From a virus: 51,309 nt of DNA. The notes below the pieces were generated by a model. The model saw only the letters and a list, made by a program, of their open reading frames with translations. It was not told the DNA's origin and searched no databases. Below, piece by piece: positions 4,988 through 40,190 of this stretch (positions are counted from its first letter, which is position 1; each line of letters opens with the position of its first letter). A program made the translations under genes and the position numbers. Where the stretch lies: the IMG/VR virus record IMGVR_UViG_3300021356_000029, positions 1 to 51,309 of that record, one strand, 5' to 3'.

Positions 4988-5004
4988 ATTAATAGGATAA
5001 ACAT

Positions 5005-5523
5005 ATGGCGATACAACCTGACAATAAAAGTTTCTTATCCCCTATTGGGTTTAGATTTTCGTGTAAGCGTTTACCGCATGTAAACTACTTCTGCACGTCA
5101 GCAACTATACCCGATATTACATTGGGCGAAACATCTTCGGTAGATAACCCATTTATCAAGTTACCTGTTCCTGGAGATAAGTTGACGTTTGGTCGTTTAG
5201 ATTTGACGTTTCGTGTTGATGAAGACATGAAGAACTTTGAGGAAATATATAACTGGCTAATCGCTCTGGGTTATCCTGATAATTTTCAACAGCGTGGCGC
5301 TATAGAACGAAGAACACAATCATCGGTAAGCGAAATATATACTGATGGTTCTCTTATGGTTATGACTGGTAATATGACACCAAACATTGAGATATCTTTT
5401 GTGGATTTATATCCAGCATCACTTTCATCGTTGGAGTTTGATATTGAAAATACTGACGTTGAATATCTTAAAGCAACTGTATCATTCGCATATAGGAAGT
5501 ATGAATTAAAAACTTTGTCATAG
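5005..5523 (+). CDS. 3: Tail tube-fold protein, probable tail completion protein gp3
   Basis: A 172-residue protein with the beta-rich look of the T4 tail-tube superfamily (gp19/gp54 type): FRFSCKRLPHVNYFC near residues 14-28, IPDITLGE at 33-40 and LTFRVDEDMKNFEEIYNWL at 73-91. In marine T4-like phages the gene between 23 and uvsY is usually annotated gp3, the tail completion and sheath stabiliser protein, and length fits T4 gp3 (176). It could instead be a gp19-type tube subunit; I favour gp3 by position. RBS AGGA precedes the ATG. Confidence 0.6.
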   Translation: MAIQPDNKSFLSPIGFRFSCKRLPHVNYFCTSATIPDITLGETSSVDNPFIKLPVPGDKLTFGRLDLTFRVDEDMKNFEEIYNWLIALGYPDNFQQRGAIERRTQSSVSEIYTDGSLMVMTGNMTPNIEISFVDLYPASLSSLEFDIENTDVEYLKATVSFAYRKYELKTLS

Positions 5524-34963: not shown

Positions 34964-35552
34964 TAAATATTCTAAAGATAAAGTAATTTTAACAGATTGT
35001 GACGGTGTCCTCCTTGATTGGGGGCATTCGTTTTTTCAGTGGATGCTTGCCCGTGGTCATAAGCCAGTCGAGGGTGCTGAGAAACTTTATAAGATTGACG
35101 AAGTGTTTGGTATGTCCCAAAATATCACTAAGCCACTTGTCCGTCAGTTTAATGAAAGTGCTTGGATGAAAGACCTGACTCCGTTTCGTGATGCCGTCAA
35201 GTATGTTCGTAAACTGCATGAAGAGCATGGCTTCGTTTTCCATTGTATCACTTCTATGTCTAATGACGTGAAAGCCTGTCAGTTGCGTAAAGAGAATCTT
35301 GAAAAGATTTTCGGTAAGGGTGTGTTTGAGGTTGTAAACTGCCTAGACTGTGGTGCCGATAAAGATGATGCGCTTGAGCCATATCGTGACAGTGAGTTGT
35401 GGTGGATTGAAGATAAACCTGCTAATGCTGATCTTGGTATTGAGTTGGGTTTGAATTCGATATTACTTGCTCATGGTCACAATGTAGGTTATAATGGTAG
35501 TGCGGTTCGAGCAATGAATTGGCGTGAAGTTTACGAAACTATTACAGGTTAG
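34956..35552 (+). CDS. HAD-like phosphatase
   Basis: A 198-residue HAD superfamily protein: catalytic ILTDCDGVLLDWG with D14 and D16, a helical cap (QWMLARGHKPVEG), FHCITSMS as motif II, and WWIEDKPANAD as motif IV. It resembles phage 5'-nucleotidase or polynucleotide phosphatase-like proteins. The substrate could be a nucleotide or a 3'/5' nucleic acid phosphate. It is part of the P6 operon. Confidence 0.8.
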   Translation: MYSKYSKDKVILTDCDGVLLDWGHSFFQWMLARGHKPVEGAEKLYKIDEVFGMSQNITKPLVRQFNESAWMKDLTPFRDAVKYVRKLHEEHGFVFHCITSMSNDVKACQLRKENLEKIFGKGVFEVVNCLDCGADKDDALEPYRDSELWWIEDKPANADLGIELGLNSILLAHGHNVGYNGSAVRAMNWREVYETITG

Positions 35553-35557
35553 ATCAT

Positions 35558-35995
35558 ATGATTATTGAGATTGGTAAAGAGTATGCTGTATCTCCTCGAT
35601 ACAAGAAGTCATTTGAGGAAAGCGAATATTGGGTTAATGGTAAAGGACAGCGCATCACAATCACCACGTTGTGGCGTGGCGGTACAATTAATATCACTCC
35701 GCAGAATGATGATGAATCTGCATGGTTAGGGCAAGCTGTTGCTCAAAAAGATGATGAGATATTTGAACCATATTCGTTTGAAGAATATGAATATCAGTCA
35801 GCTTGGGATGGCGTATCGGTAGATGTATATTTCTATGGGTTTGATGGAAATACTGATGATGAGTTATCTGAAGAGTGCCAAAGGTTACAAGATGGATATG
35901 ATGGGGAAGGCACTATGTTCCTTGAAGAAGAAGGATTTGATGTTGATGATTCTGAAGTGTTTATGTATGGCGAACTTGAAGTAGAAGAAGTTTAA
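35558..35995 (+). CDS. Acidic hypothetical protein before gene 43
   Basis: A 145-residue, very acidic protein with many Tyr, Glu and Asp (EEYEYQSAWDGVSVDVYFYG, C-terminal YGELEVEEV). Its acidity suggests a DNA mimic or protein-binding role, but this is inference. It overlaps gene 43A by one base (TAATG). Confidence 0.65.
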   Translation: MIIEIGKEYAVSPRYKKSFEESEYWVNGKGQRITITTLWRGGTINITPQNDDESAWLGQAVAQKDDEIFEPYSFEEYEYQSAWDGVSVDVYFYGFDGNTDDELSEECQRLQDGYDGEGTMFLEEEGFDVDDSEVFMYGELEVEEV

Positions 35996-37443
35996 TGAAG
36001 TTTTATACTCACACCCACGTGCGTGGCAATACAGTCTGCGTTCGTGGGTACAAGAACGGAAAGCGATTCGTAGAAAAGGTTGAGTACAATCCAACCTTAT
36101 ATGTCCCATCTCGTAAGACTACCGATTATCAAACACTGACTGGTGAATATGTTGAACCCATGCCGATGGGCGATATTAAAGAAGCCAGTAATTTCGCTAG
36201 GAAATATGAGGGCGTTGACAACTTTAAAATCTATGGCTCAACTAAATGGGCGTATGTCTATCTAAATGAAAAGTATGGCAACGATTATGATGTTGATCAA
36301 ATCAAGGTAGCAAATATTGATATTGAGGTTGCTTCTGAGGATGGATTCCCCAACCCCGAACTGGCTAATCAGCCTGTCACTGCTATCTGTATTTCCTACA
36401 CCCACAATGGTAAGAAAAGATATTATGTAATCGGCAATGGTAAGTATGAGCGCAGTCGCGACGATGTGCATTATATTGACGCTAAAGACGAGATGCGTTT
36501 ACTTGCTGTATTCTTATCCTTCTGGGAGAAACTAGACCCTGATATTATCACTGGCTGGAACATCGAGGGGTTTGATATTCCTTATCTAGTTAATCGTATC
36601 TCTAAGTTACTTGGCGAAAAAGAAGTAAGGCGACTATCGCCATTCAGGTGGATTAAGAAAAGAGAACTGACCAAGTTCAACCGCATCGAGACTTTGTATG
36701 AGTTGGTTGGTATCGCGACACTTGATTATCTACACCTGTACAAAAAGTTTACATATTCTCAGCAGGAGTCGTATCGCCTTGATCATATTGCGTTCGTCGA
36801 GCTGGGTGAGCGAAAGTTAGATTACTCTGAGATGGAAAATCTACACCAGCTGTATAAACTTGACTATCAGAAGTTTATCGACTATAATATAAAAGACGTT
36901 GAGCTTGTCGATAAAATTGAAGACAAGATGAAACTGATTGAAATGGCTTTGGCGATTGCGTATGATGCTAAGGTTAATTACAACGATACGTTTACTCAGG
37001 TTACGATGTGGGATGTGCTTATACATAATTATCTCATGAGTAAGAATATCGTGATACCACCGAAAGAAGAAACGATAAAGAACTCTGCTTTTGCTGGGGC
37101 ATACGTGAAGGAACCGCAAGTGGGAATGCATGATTGGGTTATGAGTTTTGACCTTAATTCTCTGTATCCTCACTTGATTATGCAATATAACATCTCTCCC
37201 GAAACTATGGTTGAAGATGACTTTATGGTAGATGTCGATGTTGATGATATCATTGACAGGAAAGTTGAAACTCACCCGCATCATGCTATGGCTGCGAGTG
37301 GTCGGTACTTCCGAAAAGACAAGCAAGGATTTCTACCTGAGATGATGGAAAGGATGTACACTGAACGTAAAAGCTACAAGAAGAAAATGCTTGAAGCTGA
37401 AGCGGAACTTGAATTGATAAACAAAAGGCTGGCACAATTATGA
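35995..37443 (+). CDS. 43A: DNA polymerase gp43, N-terminal half (split gene)
   Basis: A 482-residue piece of the family B polymerase: N-terminal domain, 3'-5' exonuclease with NIDIEVASEDG (Exo I), GWNIEGFDIPYL (Exo II) and YNIKDVELVDK (Exo III), then palm motif A SFDLNSLYPH with catalytic D386. It stops after KSYKKKMLEAEAELELINKR, inside the fingers coiled coil, before motif B. The rest of the enzyme is encoded by the gene at 37712. The two halves total 849 residues, close to intact marine gp43, so little sequence is lost. The stop overlaps the next ATG (ATGA). Confidence 0.94.
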   Translation: MKFYTHTHVRGNTVCVRGYKNGKRFVEKVEYNPTLYVPSRKTTDYQTLTGEYVEPMPMGDIKEASNFARKYEGVDNFKIYGSTKWAYVYLNEKYGNDYDVDQIKVANIDIEVASEDGFPNPELANQPVTAICISYTHNGKKRYYVIGNGKYERSRDDVHYIDAKDEMRLLAVFLSFWEKLDPDIITGWNIEGFDIPYLVNRISKLLGEKEVRRLSPFRWIKKRELTKFNRIETLYELVGIATLDYLHLYKKFTYSQQESYRLDHIAFVELGERKLDYSEMENLHQLYKLDYQKFIDYNIKDVELVDKIEDKMKLIEMALAIAYDAKVNYNDTFTQVTMWDVLIHNYLMSKNIVIPPKEETIKNSAFAGAYVKEPQVGMHDWVMSFDLNSLYPHLIMQYNISPETMVEDDFMVDVDVDDIIDRKVETHPHHAMAASGRYFRKDKQGFLPEMMERMYTERKSYKKKMLEAEAELELINKRLAQL

Positions 37444-37712
37444 AGAAAGGTGACGTAGTATCTCTGGTTACATTGACTGGGGAGTATGTTGGTAAGTATG
37501 AAGACGAGAGTCCTAACGGTGTTGTTTTGAAAGATCCTCGTTGGGTTATTCATGGCGAACAAGGTATGGGGTTTGCTCATGGTCTTTGTTCAACTGGTAG
37601 ACACAACCCAGATAAAGTTGAGTTTGCCAGAGGCGGTATGGTTTTTGTTACCGAAAGTAACGAAGATATTGAAAAAGCGTATCGTCAAGCTGTGAGTGGA
37701 TTGATCGTTTAA
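37440..37712 (+). CDS. 90-residue ORF inserted between the polymerase halves
   Basis: A small beta-rich protein (MKKGDVVSLVTLTGEYVGKY, then VVLKDPRWVIHGEQGMGF) with the look of an SH3/Sm-like domain and a helical tail. It has no homing-endonuclease motif (no GIY-YIG, HNH or LAGLIDADG). It overlaps both polymerase pieces (ATGA and TAATG), so all three are translated in sequence. It could be a subunit or clamp-like factor of the split polymerase, or a passenger at the break. Confidence 0.75.
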   Translation: MKKGDVVSLVTLTGEYVGKYEDESPNGVVLKDPRWVIHGEQGMGFAHGLCSTGRHNPDKVEFARGGMVFVTESNEDIEKAYRQAVSGLIV

Positions 37713-38815
37713 TGATTGAAAATATGAGCAAAGCTGACCTTCTCGAACGCAAGAAACAGGTCATCAAAGATATTAGTAAGTACAAGAATCTACAGCTTGC
37801 TAAGAAAGTTCAGCTAAACTCAGCCTATGGTGCGGTTGGTAACAAATACTTCCGATTCTTCGATGTGAGGAAAGCGGAATCAATCACACTATCTGGTCAG
37901 TTGTCTATTCGTTGGATTGAGAGGAGAGTTAATGAATACCTTAATAAGTTACTTCAAACATCCGAAGCTGATTATGTTATTGCATCGGATACGGATTCTA
38001 TCTATGTCAATTTCGATGCACTTGTACGCAAGTGCTTTGAAGAGGGAAGTGACCCTGTCAAAATCGTCAATTTCCTGGACAAAGTTGCAACTGAGAAGTT
38101 GGAACCTTTTATTGATAAAAGTTATGAGGAACTGGCACGAATAACAAACTCGTATGACCAAAAGATGTTTATGAAACGAGAGGTTATTGCGGATAAAGCT
38201 ATCTGGACTGCTAAGAAAAGATACATGATGAATGTGTATGATAACGAAGGAGTCCGATACGCCAAGCCAAAACTCAAGATGATGGGTATCGAAACTGTAA
38301 AATCATCGACACCGCAATCGTGTCGCGATGCCCTTGAGGAAGCAATTAATATTATTATGAACAAGGATGAGCAATCTGCGCAACAATACATATCTGACTT
38401 CAGGAAGAAGTTTGAGCAGTTGCCCTTTGAAGACGTTGCCTTTCCTCGATCTGTATCAGACTTCAGCAAATATGATGATGGTAAGAAAGACTTGACTATA
38501 CCGAAAAGTACACCGATTCATGTTCGGGGTGGTCTAGTTTACAATCATCTGATCAAAAAGCACGGTCTTGAGAAAAAGTATGAATTGGTAAAAGACGGTG
38601 AGAAGCTAAAGTTCTGTTACCTAAATAGTCCTAATCCTGCTCAACATAATGTGATCAGCGTAATGAATACGTTGCCTAGAGAGTTTGACTTGAGCAGTTA
38701 TATAGACTACGAAACGCAGTTTAACAAAGCGTTTCTCGACCCACTAAAGATAATCCTAGAGTCGGTTGGTTGGAGTGATGAAAAGAAATCCAGCCTTGAA
38801 GACTTTTTTGGATAG
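37712..38815 (+). CDS. 43B: DNA polymerase gp43, C-terminal half (split gene)
   Basis: A 367-residue piece starting in the fingers helix (MIENMSKADLLERKKQVIKD): motif B KKVQLNSAYGAVGN at 31-44, motif C SDTDSIYV with D93/D95, KKRYMM and the thumb. The last residues KKSSLEDFFG are the expected gp45-binding tail, as in other T4-type polymerases. Together with 43A all catalytic residues are present, so a functional heterodimer is likely. Confidence 0.94.
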   Translation: MIENMSKADLLERKKQVIKDISKYKNLQLAKKVQLNSAYGAVGNKYFRFFDVRKAESITLSGQLSIRWIERRVNEYLNKLLQTSEADYVIASDTDSIYVNFDALVRKCFEEGSDPVKIVNFLDKVATEKLEPFIDKSYEELARITNSYDQKMFMKREVIADKAIWTAKKRYMMNVYDNEGVRYAKPKLKMMGIETVKSSTPQSCRDALEEAINIIMNKDEQSAQQYISDFRKKFEQLPFEDVAFPRSVSDFSKYDDGKKDLTIPKSTPIHVRGGLVYNHLIKKHGLEKKYELVKDGEKLKFCYLNSPNPAQHNVISVMNTLPREFDLSSYIDYETQFNKAFLDPLKIILESVGWSDEKKSSLEDFFG

Positions 38816-38825
38816 GAGAAGAAAG

Positions 38826-39089
38826 ATGAGCGACTTCGATTTTGACTTTGGATTTACGGCTGTCACTGAAGACGAACTTGACGTTGTACAGAAAGCCAGC
38901 ACTGCTGCTGAAACTGCAGCTGCAGCTGTTGATTCTTGGGAAGCTAAGTGCGCTGACTTGTACAATACGTTTAAGCCACTTCTTAATAACTTGGCTAAGA
39001 ATCCTGAAAAAGATTATATCTATTGGCCAAATCGTATGGATAAGTTGGAACAGTTCAGCGACCTAATTGATAAGATATACAAAAGTTGA
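38826..39089 (+). CDS. Small hypothetical protein between 43 and uvsX
   Basis: An 87-residue protein with a Phe/Asp-rich start (MSDFDFDFGFTAV) and an Ala-rich helix (AETAAAAVDSWEAK). I recall a short protein with the FDFDFGF start before uvsX in other marine T4-like phages; function unknown. The ATG at 38826 has AGGAGAAG upstream. The aromatic N-terminus could be a docking peptide. Confidence 0.68.
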   Translation: MSDFDFDFGFTAVTEDELDVVQKASTAAETAAAAVDSWEAKCADLYNTFKPLLNNLAKNPEKDYIYWPNRMDKLEQFSDLIDKIYKS

Positions 39090-39114
39090 CATTAAGATTG
39101 TTTTATAGTATAAT
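39086..39114 (+). promoter_or_regulatory. Early sigma70-type promoter (P7) for uvsX
   Basis: TTGACA at 39086-39091, 17-base spacer, TATAAT at 39109-39114, 30 bases before uvsX; the -35 box overlaps the stop of the preceding gene. Confidence 0.87.
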
Positions 39115-39143
39115 TGACTAAGTTCAATATGGAGTAAAATGTA

Positions 39144-40190
39144 ATGAGTTTTTTGACTGATATGGTAAAGGGCATCGATAATACTTCGCTCCTTGCCGAT
39201 GGCGGTAATAGTTCTGAGTTTTCAGGAACGGTTGATACAGGATCTTATATCCTAAACGCAGCCATTTCTGGAAGTTTGTATGGCGGTGTGCCGAACAATA
39301 AAATCACTGCCTTTGCTGGTGAGTCTGCTACTGGTAAAACATTTTTTGTACTTGGGGTACTCAAGCAGTTCCTTGAGGATAATAAAGACGGTGGCGTTAT
39401 CTACTTTGATACAGAGGCTGCAGTTACTAAGCAGATGATGGAAGATCGAGGCATCGACACCAAGCGTGTAGTTATCTCTGAGCCAGCATCGATTGAAGAG
39501 TTCCGAACTAACGCAACTCGTATCTTGACAACTTATATTGATCAGGGTAAGGATGCGCCACCTATGATGATGGTGTTAGATTCACTTGGTATGTTATCTT
39601 CTAACAAAGAACTGGCTGATACTGAGGCTGGTACTGACAAGCGAGATATGACCAAAGCGCAACTGCTTCGTGGTACTTTCCGTGTACTTTCTCTGAAGCT
39701 GGCTAAAGCTAATGTTCCTTTGCTAGTTACTAATCACGTGTATGATGTGGTCGGTGCTTATATTCCTACCAAAGAAATCAGTGGCGGTAGTGGCTTGAAG
39801 TATGCTGCTTCGTCAATCGCTATGCTTGGTAAGAAGAAAGATAAAGATGGCACTGACGTTATTGGTAACATTATCAAGGTAACAATGCATAAGTCTCGAT
39901 TTACTAAAGAGCAGAAAAAGGTTGAGGTGAAGTTGTCATACGACAGCGGTCTTGATCGTTACTATGGGTTGCTTGACCTTGCTGAAAAATATAACATCAT
40001 TAAGAAAGTGTCGACTCGATATGAGTTGCCTGATGGGCGTAAGGTATTTGGTAAAGCAATCAACGCTAATCCTGAAGAATATTTTACTGCCGATATTATG
40101 GATCAACTTGAAGTTGCTGCGAACAAAGAGTTCAAGTATGGTCAGGTCGGTATTGATGAGCCGACTGAGGAAGTTGAAAATGCCAGTTAA
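39144..40190 (+). CDS. uvsX: RecA-like recombinase UvsX
   Basis: A 348-residue RecA family strand-exchange protein (T4 391): Walker A GESATGKT at 59-66, Walker B MMMVLDSLGML, and a DNA-binding loop region with KEISGGSGLKYAAS. It works with UvsY and gp41 in recombination-dependent replication. It has its own promoter and GGAG site, and its end overlaps the next ORF by 11 bases. Confidence 0.97.
   Translation: MSFLTDMVKGIDNTSLLADGGNSSEFSGTVDTGSYILNAAISGSLYGGVPNNKITAFAGESATGKTFFVLGVLKQFLEDNKDGGVIYFDTEAAVTKQMMEDRGIDTKRVVISEPASIEEFRTNATRILTTYIDQGKDAPPMMMVLDSLGMLSSNKELADTEAGTDKRDMTKAQLLRGTFRVLSLKLAKANVPLLVTNHVYDVVGAYIPTKEISGGSGLKYAASSIAMLGKKKDKDGTDVIGNIIKVTMHKSRFTKEQKKVEVKLSYDSGLDRYYGLLDLAEKYNIIKKVSTRYELPDGRKVFGKAINANPEEYFTADIMDQLEVAANKEFKYGQVGIDEPTEEVENAS

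Follow-up and report, generated by a model that had tools for sequence, protein, structure and literature searches.

The replicative DNA polymerase of the phage studied here is encoded in two half-genes, 43A and 43B, and the junction between them is a slot whose cargo is exchanged among relatives. In our judgment it is likely that a break at the tip of the fingers, one that recurs and is sometimes reversed, has become a cargo slot, and that the small gene now lying in it, which we call gene I, is a passenger with a function of its own that the split enzyme does not need. Of all genes, that for a replicative polymerase might be expected to tolerate a break least, but here breaks have arisen repeatedly at one spot. 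The break is apparently healable, and unrelated genes come and go at the site.

RESULTS AND DISCUSSION

Genomic Setting and the Two Polymerase Halves

The window, by which we mean the whole stretch of DNA that was analyzed, is an IMG/VR virus record itself, 51,309 bases long. A nucleotidase/HAD-like gene lies upstream of the 43A-I-43B cluster, genes for UvsX and a gp41-type helicase lie downstream, and genes for the major head protein, a clamp loader, and SbcCD-type proteins are located elsewhere in the window. Judged by their sequences, these surroundings are those of a T4-like phage, and the nearest isolates to it are marine cyanophages at <60% identity. The gene directly 5′ of 43A (35558–35995) is without a clear family match. 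A homolog of this gene occurs ∼600 bp upstream of a free copy of gene I in L036 (L036:3977-4402 and 5001-5294), and likewise in L037–L040, with no polymerase half adjacent there; genes of this type and gene I may travel jointly. The features on which the analysis rests are as follows.

35995..37443, + strand: 43A, N-terminal half of a T4-type family B DNA polymerase (482 aa; phrog_262 E 4e-174, phrog_2062 E 5e-160), with the N-terminal domain, the 3′-5′ exonuclease, the palm with motif A, and the first fingers helix
37150..37170, + strand: motif A, DLNSLYP, 43A residues 386–392 (read from sequence)
37378..37440, + strand: C-terminal tail of 43A, KKKMLEAEAELELINKRLAQL, a first fingers helix that appears lengthened relative to unbroken relatives (fingers-tip segment lengths)
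37440..37443, + strand: ATGA, in which the start of gene I overlaps the stop of 43A
37440..37712, + strand: gene I, predicted Sm/LSm-like protein and likely passenger in the slot (90 aa; pLDDT 92.7; 3by7 Z 11.0; dN/dS <1)
37710..37714, + strand: TAATG, in which the stop of gene I overlaps the start of 43B
37712..38815, + strand: 43B, C-terminal half of the polymerase (367 aa; phrog_262 E 2e-149, phrog_1918 E 3e-144), with the second fingers helix, the palm with motifs B and C, and the thumb
37712..37792, + strand: N-terminal extension of 43B, MIENMSKADLLERKKQVIKDISKYKNL, predicted to be helical from residue 7 and presumed partner of the 43A tail (fingers-tip lengths; low-confidence model)
37802..37831, + strand: motif B, KKVQLNSAYG, in 43B (read from sequence; nearly all columns invariant across the split set)
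37988..37999, + strand: motif C, DTDS, in 43B (read from sequence; invariant across the split set)

The two halves cover consecutive positions of phrog_262, an 856-position DNA polymerase family, with 43A accounting for positions 7–496 and 43B for positions 497–852; therefore, no conserved part is missing between them. When aligned with the RB69 polymerase, 43A extends up to residue 503 and 43B begins from residue 555, and this alignment places the break at the fingers tip, in the stretch that separates motif A from motif B. A first-pass annotation of this DNA had placed the break in the fingers and had held that all catalytic motifs are kept. Both statements agree with these data, as motif A is in 43A and motifs B and C are in 43B. 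When 43B was modeled by itself with AlphaFold, the result was weak (pLDDT 68.5), and residues 7–40 form a single helix in it with low confidence; only this helical N-terminus was used, cautiously.

Gene I Encodes a Predicted Sm-like Protein

AlphaFold, run on gene I with 42 relatives, returned a model with pLDDT 92.7, in which a small, strongly bent beta barrel is followed by a C-terminal helix. By the model and by structure comparison, the barrel has the five strands of the Sm fold. The best solved structure found with VIA-align is 3by7 (Z 11.0 over 82 residues, 2.4 Å, 17% identity), the entry for which describes structural similarity to Sm/LSm-like RNA-binding proteins, and archaeal SmAP and eukaryotic LSm structures follow at Z about 8–8.8. 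Foldseek also ranks the Sm-like group high and recovers many uncharacterized phage proteins with the same fold, two of which are named Sm-like. The 3by7 structure is of a marine Sm-like protein, described as of putative cyanophage origin. It shares the fold of gene I, although a profile search between the two is not significant (E 0.09), and we infer from the fold that gene I is probably ring-forming and RNA-binding. The designed TIP60 particle, which is built on a putative Sm-like protein that assembles five-fold (PMC12389965), is also high in the structure-match list.

At the level of sequence families, the matches of gene I and its relatives to phrog_527, a group of small phage proteins without assigned function, are weak to moderate (E 9e-4 in the window, 6e-6 in L036, and 5e-8 in the Melnitz phage). 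Searches of Pfam, PHROGs, and NCBIfam returned no match of gene I to the GIY-YIG, HNH, LAGLIDADG, or Vsr nuclease families. We are confident in the prediction of an Sm/LSm-like fold, and because of this fold gene I is not an endonuclease. The first-pass annotation had also described the insert as a non-endonuclease, SH3/Sm-like protein, and both points agree with these results.

The Arrangement Recurs and Is under Purifying Selection

A scan of IMG/VR with gene I gave 40 loci, and a profile-based scan together with polymerase scans added further contigs. The 43A-I-43B order is present in >40 other contigs from different metagenomes, with gene I identities of 43–86%. This recurrence excludes assembly error and chance, and the split with its insert that was reported in the first-pass annotation is thus real. 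Locus L424 was left out, since further stops break its 43A frame despite its automatic classification as split, and we regarded it as an artefact of sequencing or decay.

In 43A, gene I, and 43B alike, there are more synonymous than nonsynonymous changes. For pairs in which dS could be estimated, dN/dS is about 0.035–0.10 for 43B, 0.03–0.09 for 43A, and 0.07–0.38 for gene I, the last being mostly several times that of 43B. On the basis of these values, all three genes are maintained, gene I least strictly. A sequencing or assembly error, or a polymerase pseudogene in decay, would have the broken frame itself in its favor and nothing more, and there is essentially no chance that it accounts for the data: the same structure stands in >40 contigs from different metagenomes, dN/dS of the two halves is about 0.03–0.10, and the motif C residues, with nearly all columns of motif B, are invariant in 43B across the split set. 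Recurrence and purifying selection together refute this explanation.

The ATGA and TAATG overlaps, which the first-pass annotation had read as coupling the insert to both halves, are indeed present at both joints. Overlaps of this type also occur at 15 of the 53 same-strand gene junctions in the window, however, and are ordinary for this genome; a special translational coupling at 43A/I/43B was therefore rejected.

The Contents of the Slot Change among Relatives

Inspection of the junction across relatives shows that it may be empty or filled, and that the cargo differs. The slot is empty in L049, L055–L057, L127, and L375, where 43A and 43B overlap by 8–14 nt, and it holds gene I alone at most loci. 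A HAD/PMM-like phosphatase occupies it in L054 and L122–L126, and a 2OG-Fe(II) oxygenase occupies it in L061 and L202–L204, as well as in L374, which belongs to a different lineage. Gene I can also be accompanied: by a 264-aa membrane protein in L131, by a tail-fibre-assembly-chaperone-like ORF ahead of it in L372 (L372:3244-3471; Pfam Phage_tail_APC E 2e-15), and by a GIY-YIG-like ORF upstream of it in L026 (L026:1786-2328), the best PHROG match of which is "homing endonuclease" (E 3e-7), with no match in Pfam. In nearly all filled slots, the passenger begins and ends in codons that overlap or abut those of the flanking genes; in L026, 43A is followed by a short untranslated segment. Relatives whose polymerase is unbroken also have genes of the HAD and oxygenase families close to the polymerase gene, though not in the slot, and the members found in slots are therefore ordinary phage genes at a convenient site.

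The L131 membrane protein (L131:3105-3899) follows gene I and has a helical, coiled-coil-like middle. In L329, a free gene I is directly preceded by a gene for a 310-aa protein whose start is similar in style.

Gene I and the Split Occur Independently

Gene I dissociates from the split in both directions. The 43A and 43B genes are adjacent in the L130 record (146,609 bases), which yields no gene I profile match at E 0.01; this is the single large contig of its kind, its completeness is unproven, and the other records are fragments. Conversely, in four records (144, 88, 67, and 60 kb) gene I is located elsewhere and the polymerase is unbroken, encoded by one open frame of 819–833 codons. The Melnitz phage has an unbroken polymerase as well, with a distant gene I homolog 4 kb downstream. 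Two further records (105 and 122 kb) contain gene I and no match to either polymerase half, though they are possibly incomplete. The neighbors of gene I homologs include thyX, mazG, glutaredoxin, and other genes. The first-pass annotation, which had suggested that the insert may be a third polymerase subunit, had itself named occurrence at unrelated sites, combined with no contact in models, as evidence against that suggestion, and of these two it is the unrelated sites, in phages with unbroken polymerases, that we observe.

The gene I tree gives a similar picture, with slot and non-slot copies interleaved and at least 6 changes between the two states, 3 of them forced by well-supported branches, on few columns and with weak resolution. 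Gene I is nevertheless retained in the slot of many lineages, and among slot members its divergence is correlated with polymerase divergence (Mantel r 0.70, a value attained in 0 of 2000 permutations). Because the two diverge in step, gene I would have been inherited vertically for long stretches once in the slot. This correlation fits mostly vertical inheritance and is also compatible with a partnership.

The Break Has Formed More Than Once

Trees were built from the combined 43A and 43B sequences after removal of the fingers tip. Split forms appear in several places: the main clade, which includes the window; the 2OG lineage L061/L202/L203; the L454/L464/L466/L482 group; L111; and Aeromonas 44RR. 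On the larger tree, parsimony demands at least 9 changes between split and unbroken. Some unbroken polymerases (L050, L052, and L074) are nested within the main split clade. AU tests on a reduced tree, for groups that were named after the tree had first been seen, reject the exclusion of these three from the main split clade (p 2e-9) and reject a union of that clade with the 2OG lineage (p 4e-4). A single origin of all splits is rejected, with the same qualification. The scatter of split forms on the trees and the AU tests thus indicate that the break formed more than once, and the tree positions suggest that it has probably healed at least one time.

The fingers-tip segment measures 73–77 aa in nearly all split forms versus 57–61 aa in unbroken relatives. 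The simplest reading of this difference is that the lengthened helices zip the halves together. Of the nested unbroken forms, L050 and L053 have a fingers tip in the short 57–61 aa class. L050, L052, and L074, and possibly L053, combine an unbroken gene nested in the split clade with a short 57-aa fingers tip; in the first three, the halves were probably re-fused, or a recombination event replaced the tip. The extended tip sequence of the 2OG lineage resembles that of the main clade, as judged by eye only, which suggests that a fingers tip was transferred between the two.

A Proposed Mechanism and Its Alternatives

These observations can be joined in the following proposal. The polymerase gene is broken where the fingers hairpin has its tip, and both halves would be made from one polycistronic mRNA. 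The halves would then probably re-associate into one enzyme via the lengthened fingers helices, by analogy with the phage 25 precedent discussed below. A slot between two essential, co-translated half-genes would allow small genes to enter harmlessly so long as the start/stop overlaps are kept. In most of the clade, the passenger at present would be gene I, with its own function and a long co-inheritance with the polymerase, while being dispensable to the split enzyme.

The idea of a third subunit, in which the halves would be held together or regulated by an Sm-like protein bound to the cut tip of the fingers, draws on the position of gene I and its overlaps, on its long retention and correlated divergence with the polymerase, and on the purifying selection that acts on it (dN/dS about 0.07–0.38). 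The same overlaps are commonplace in the genome, however, and the dN/dS of gene I, mostly several times that of 43B, is unlike that of an essential interface. Some split polymerases have no gene I, or have unrelated genes in its place, and gene I exists in phages with an unbroken polymerase. The empty slots, the other cargo, and the copies of gene I beside unbroken polymerases led us to reject a third subunit as the leading idea, and we now regard it as very unlikely. Also hard to credit is a partnership restricted to this clade, in which an Sm-like ring would dock on the free fingers tips or take part in primer RNA handover, and would be lost or replaced only where the tips changed.

A different role for the protein would be to regulate its own operon as an Sm-like RNA-binding factor, acting on the translation or stability of the 43A-I-43B mRNA. 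RegA and gp43 itself are somewhat comparable regulators in T4. The predicted Sm/LSm-like fold is in keeping with such a role, and at other sites gene I is frequently part of overlapping operons that include genes of nucleotide metabolism (such as thyX and mazG), so a regulatory effect on its neighbors is possible. Considering that the sequence match to 3by7 is not significant, that RNA binding is read from the fold, and that the neighbors of gene I vary with no common target evident, we hold this explanation to be unlikely. Removal of the insert by splicing, as an intron or intein, would yield a continuous polymerase, and an intein-type split of gene 43 in Aeromonas phages and the group I intron that gene 43 of these phages can carry (PMC2993671) lend the idea some precedent. 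The insert is only as long as gene I, however, and overlaps the halves by 4 and 1 nt; its product has an Sm-like fold and no intein domain match in Pfam, PHROGs, or NCBIfam; an Rfam scan of 35500–39200 found no intron match at E 1; and relatives with an empty slot keep two overlapping, out-of-frame ORFs. Splicing is therefore highly improbable, and we favor the passenger in a cargo slot.

The unbroken, empty-split, and filled-split forms make up a natural series that bears on how split enzymes persist, on whether homing endonucleases leave permanent points of insertion in essential genes, and on how lengthened fingers helices might restore an enzyme. A family of Sm-like phage proteins about which little is known is also brought to notice.

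Comparison with Known Split Polymerases

Aeromonas phages 25, 44RR2.8t, and Aes508 resemble the window in carrying a family B polymerase as two ORFs with the break in the fingers region. A GIY-YIG/seg-type endonuclease gene lies between 43A and 43B in phage 25 and Aes508, whereas 44RR2.8t has a short gap only. For phage 25, 43A and 43B co-purify with polymerase activity, and the seg endonuclease at the junction might have entered an already formed slot (PMC2988022). The clade of the window is a separate lineage, with an independent break on the tree and different end sequences. Neither a homing endonuclease nor an untranslated spacer is present between the halves in the window; the Sm-like gene is there instead, and across the clade the junction has changing passengers or none.

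The contrast that the first-pass annotation drew with endonuclease-associated splits thus holds for the insert in the window. It is weaker for the relatives as a whole, as endonuclease-type ORFs occupy the junction in two other members: the GIY-YIG-like ORF of L026, within the clade of the window, and an HNH endonuclease gene in L482, of the independently split L454 group (L482:1804-2445, gene 1860–2312; phrog_374 E 9e-60). Neither L026 nor L482 has an Rfam intron match. The 43B of L482 has no ATG, GTG, or TTG start at the usual place, where ATT GGG TAT is found. Since endonuclease ORFs lie at the junction in L026, L482, phage 25, and Aes508, it is plausible that homing endonucleases were the original cause of the break and its slots, though their entry into ready-formed slots is equally possible.

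The order of half polymerase, small ORF, and half polymerase also occurs in the OM43 phages MEP401 and MEP402, in which a family A polymerase is split (PMC10580990). The polymerase and phage families are unrelated to those of the window. In MEP401, an unrelated marine phage (L368:6111-8221), the ORF between the family A halves is 77 aa long, and a relationship of this protein, gp14, to gene I was rejected, as gp14 has no match to the gene I profile. A split gene 43 is itself of a known kind. Within the literature searched, what appears to be new is a slot in a T4-type polymerase gene with rotating non-endonuclease genes, one that may empty or close again.
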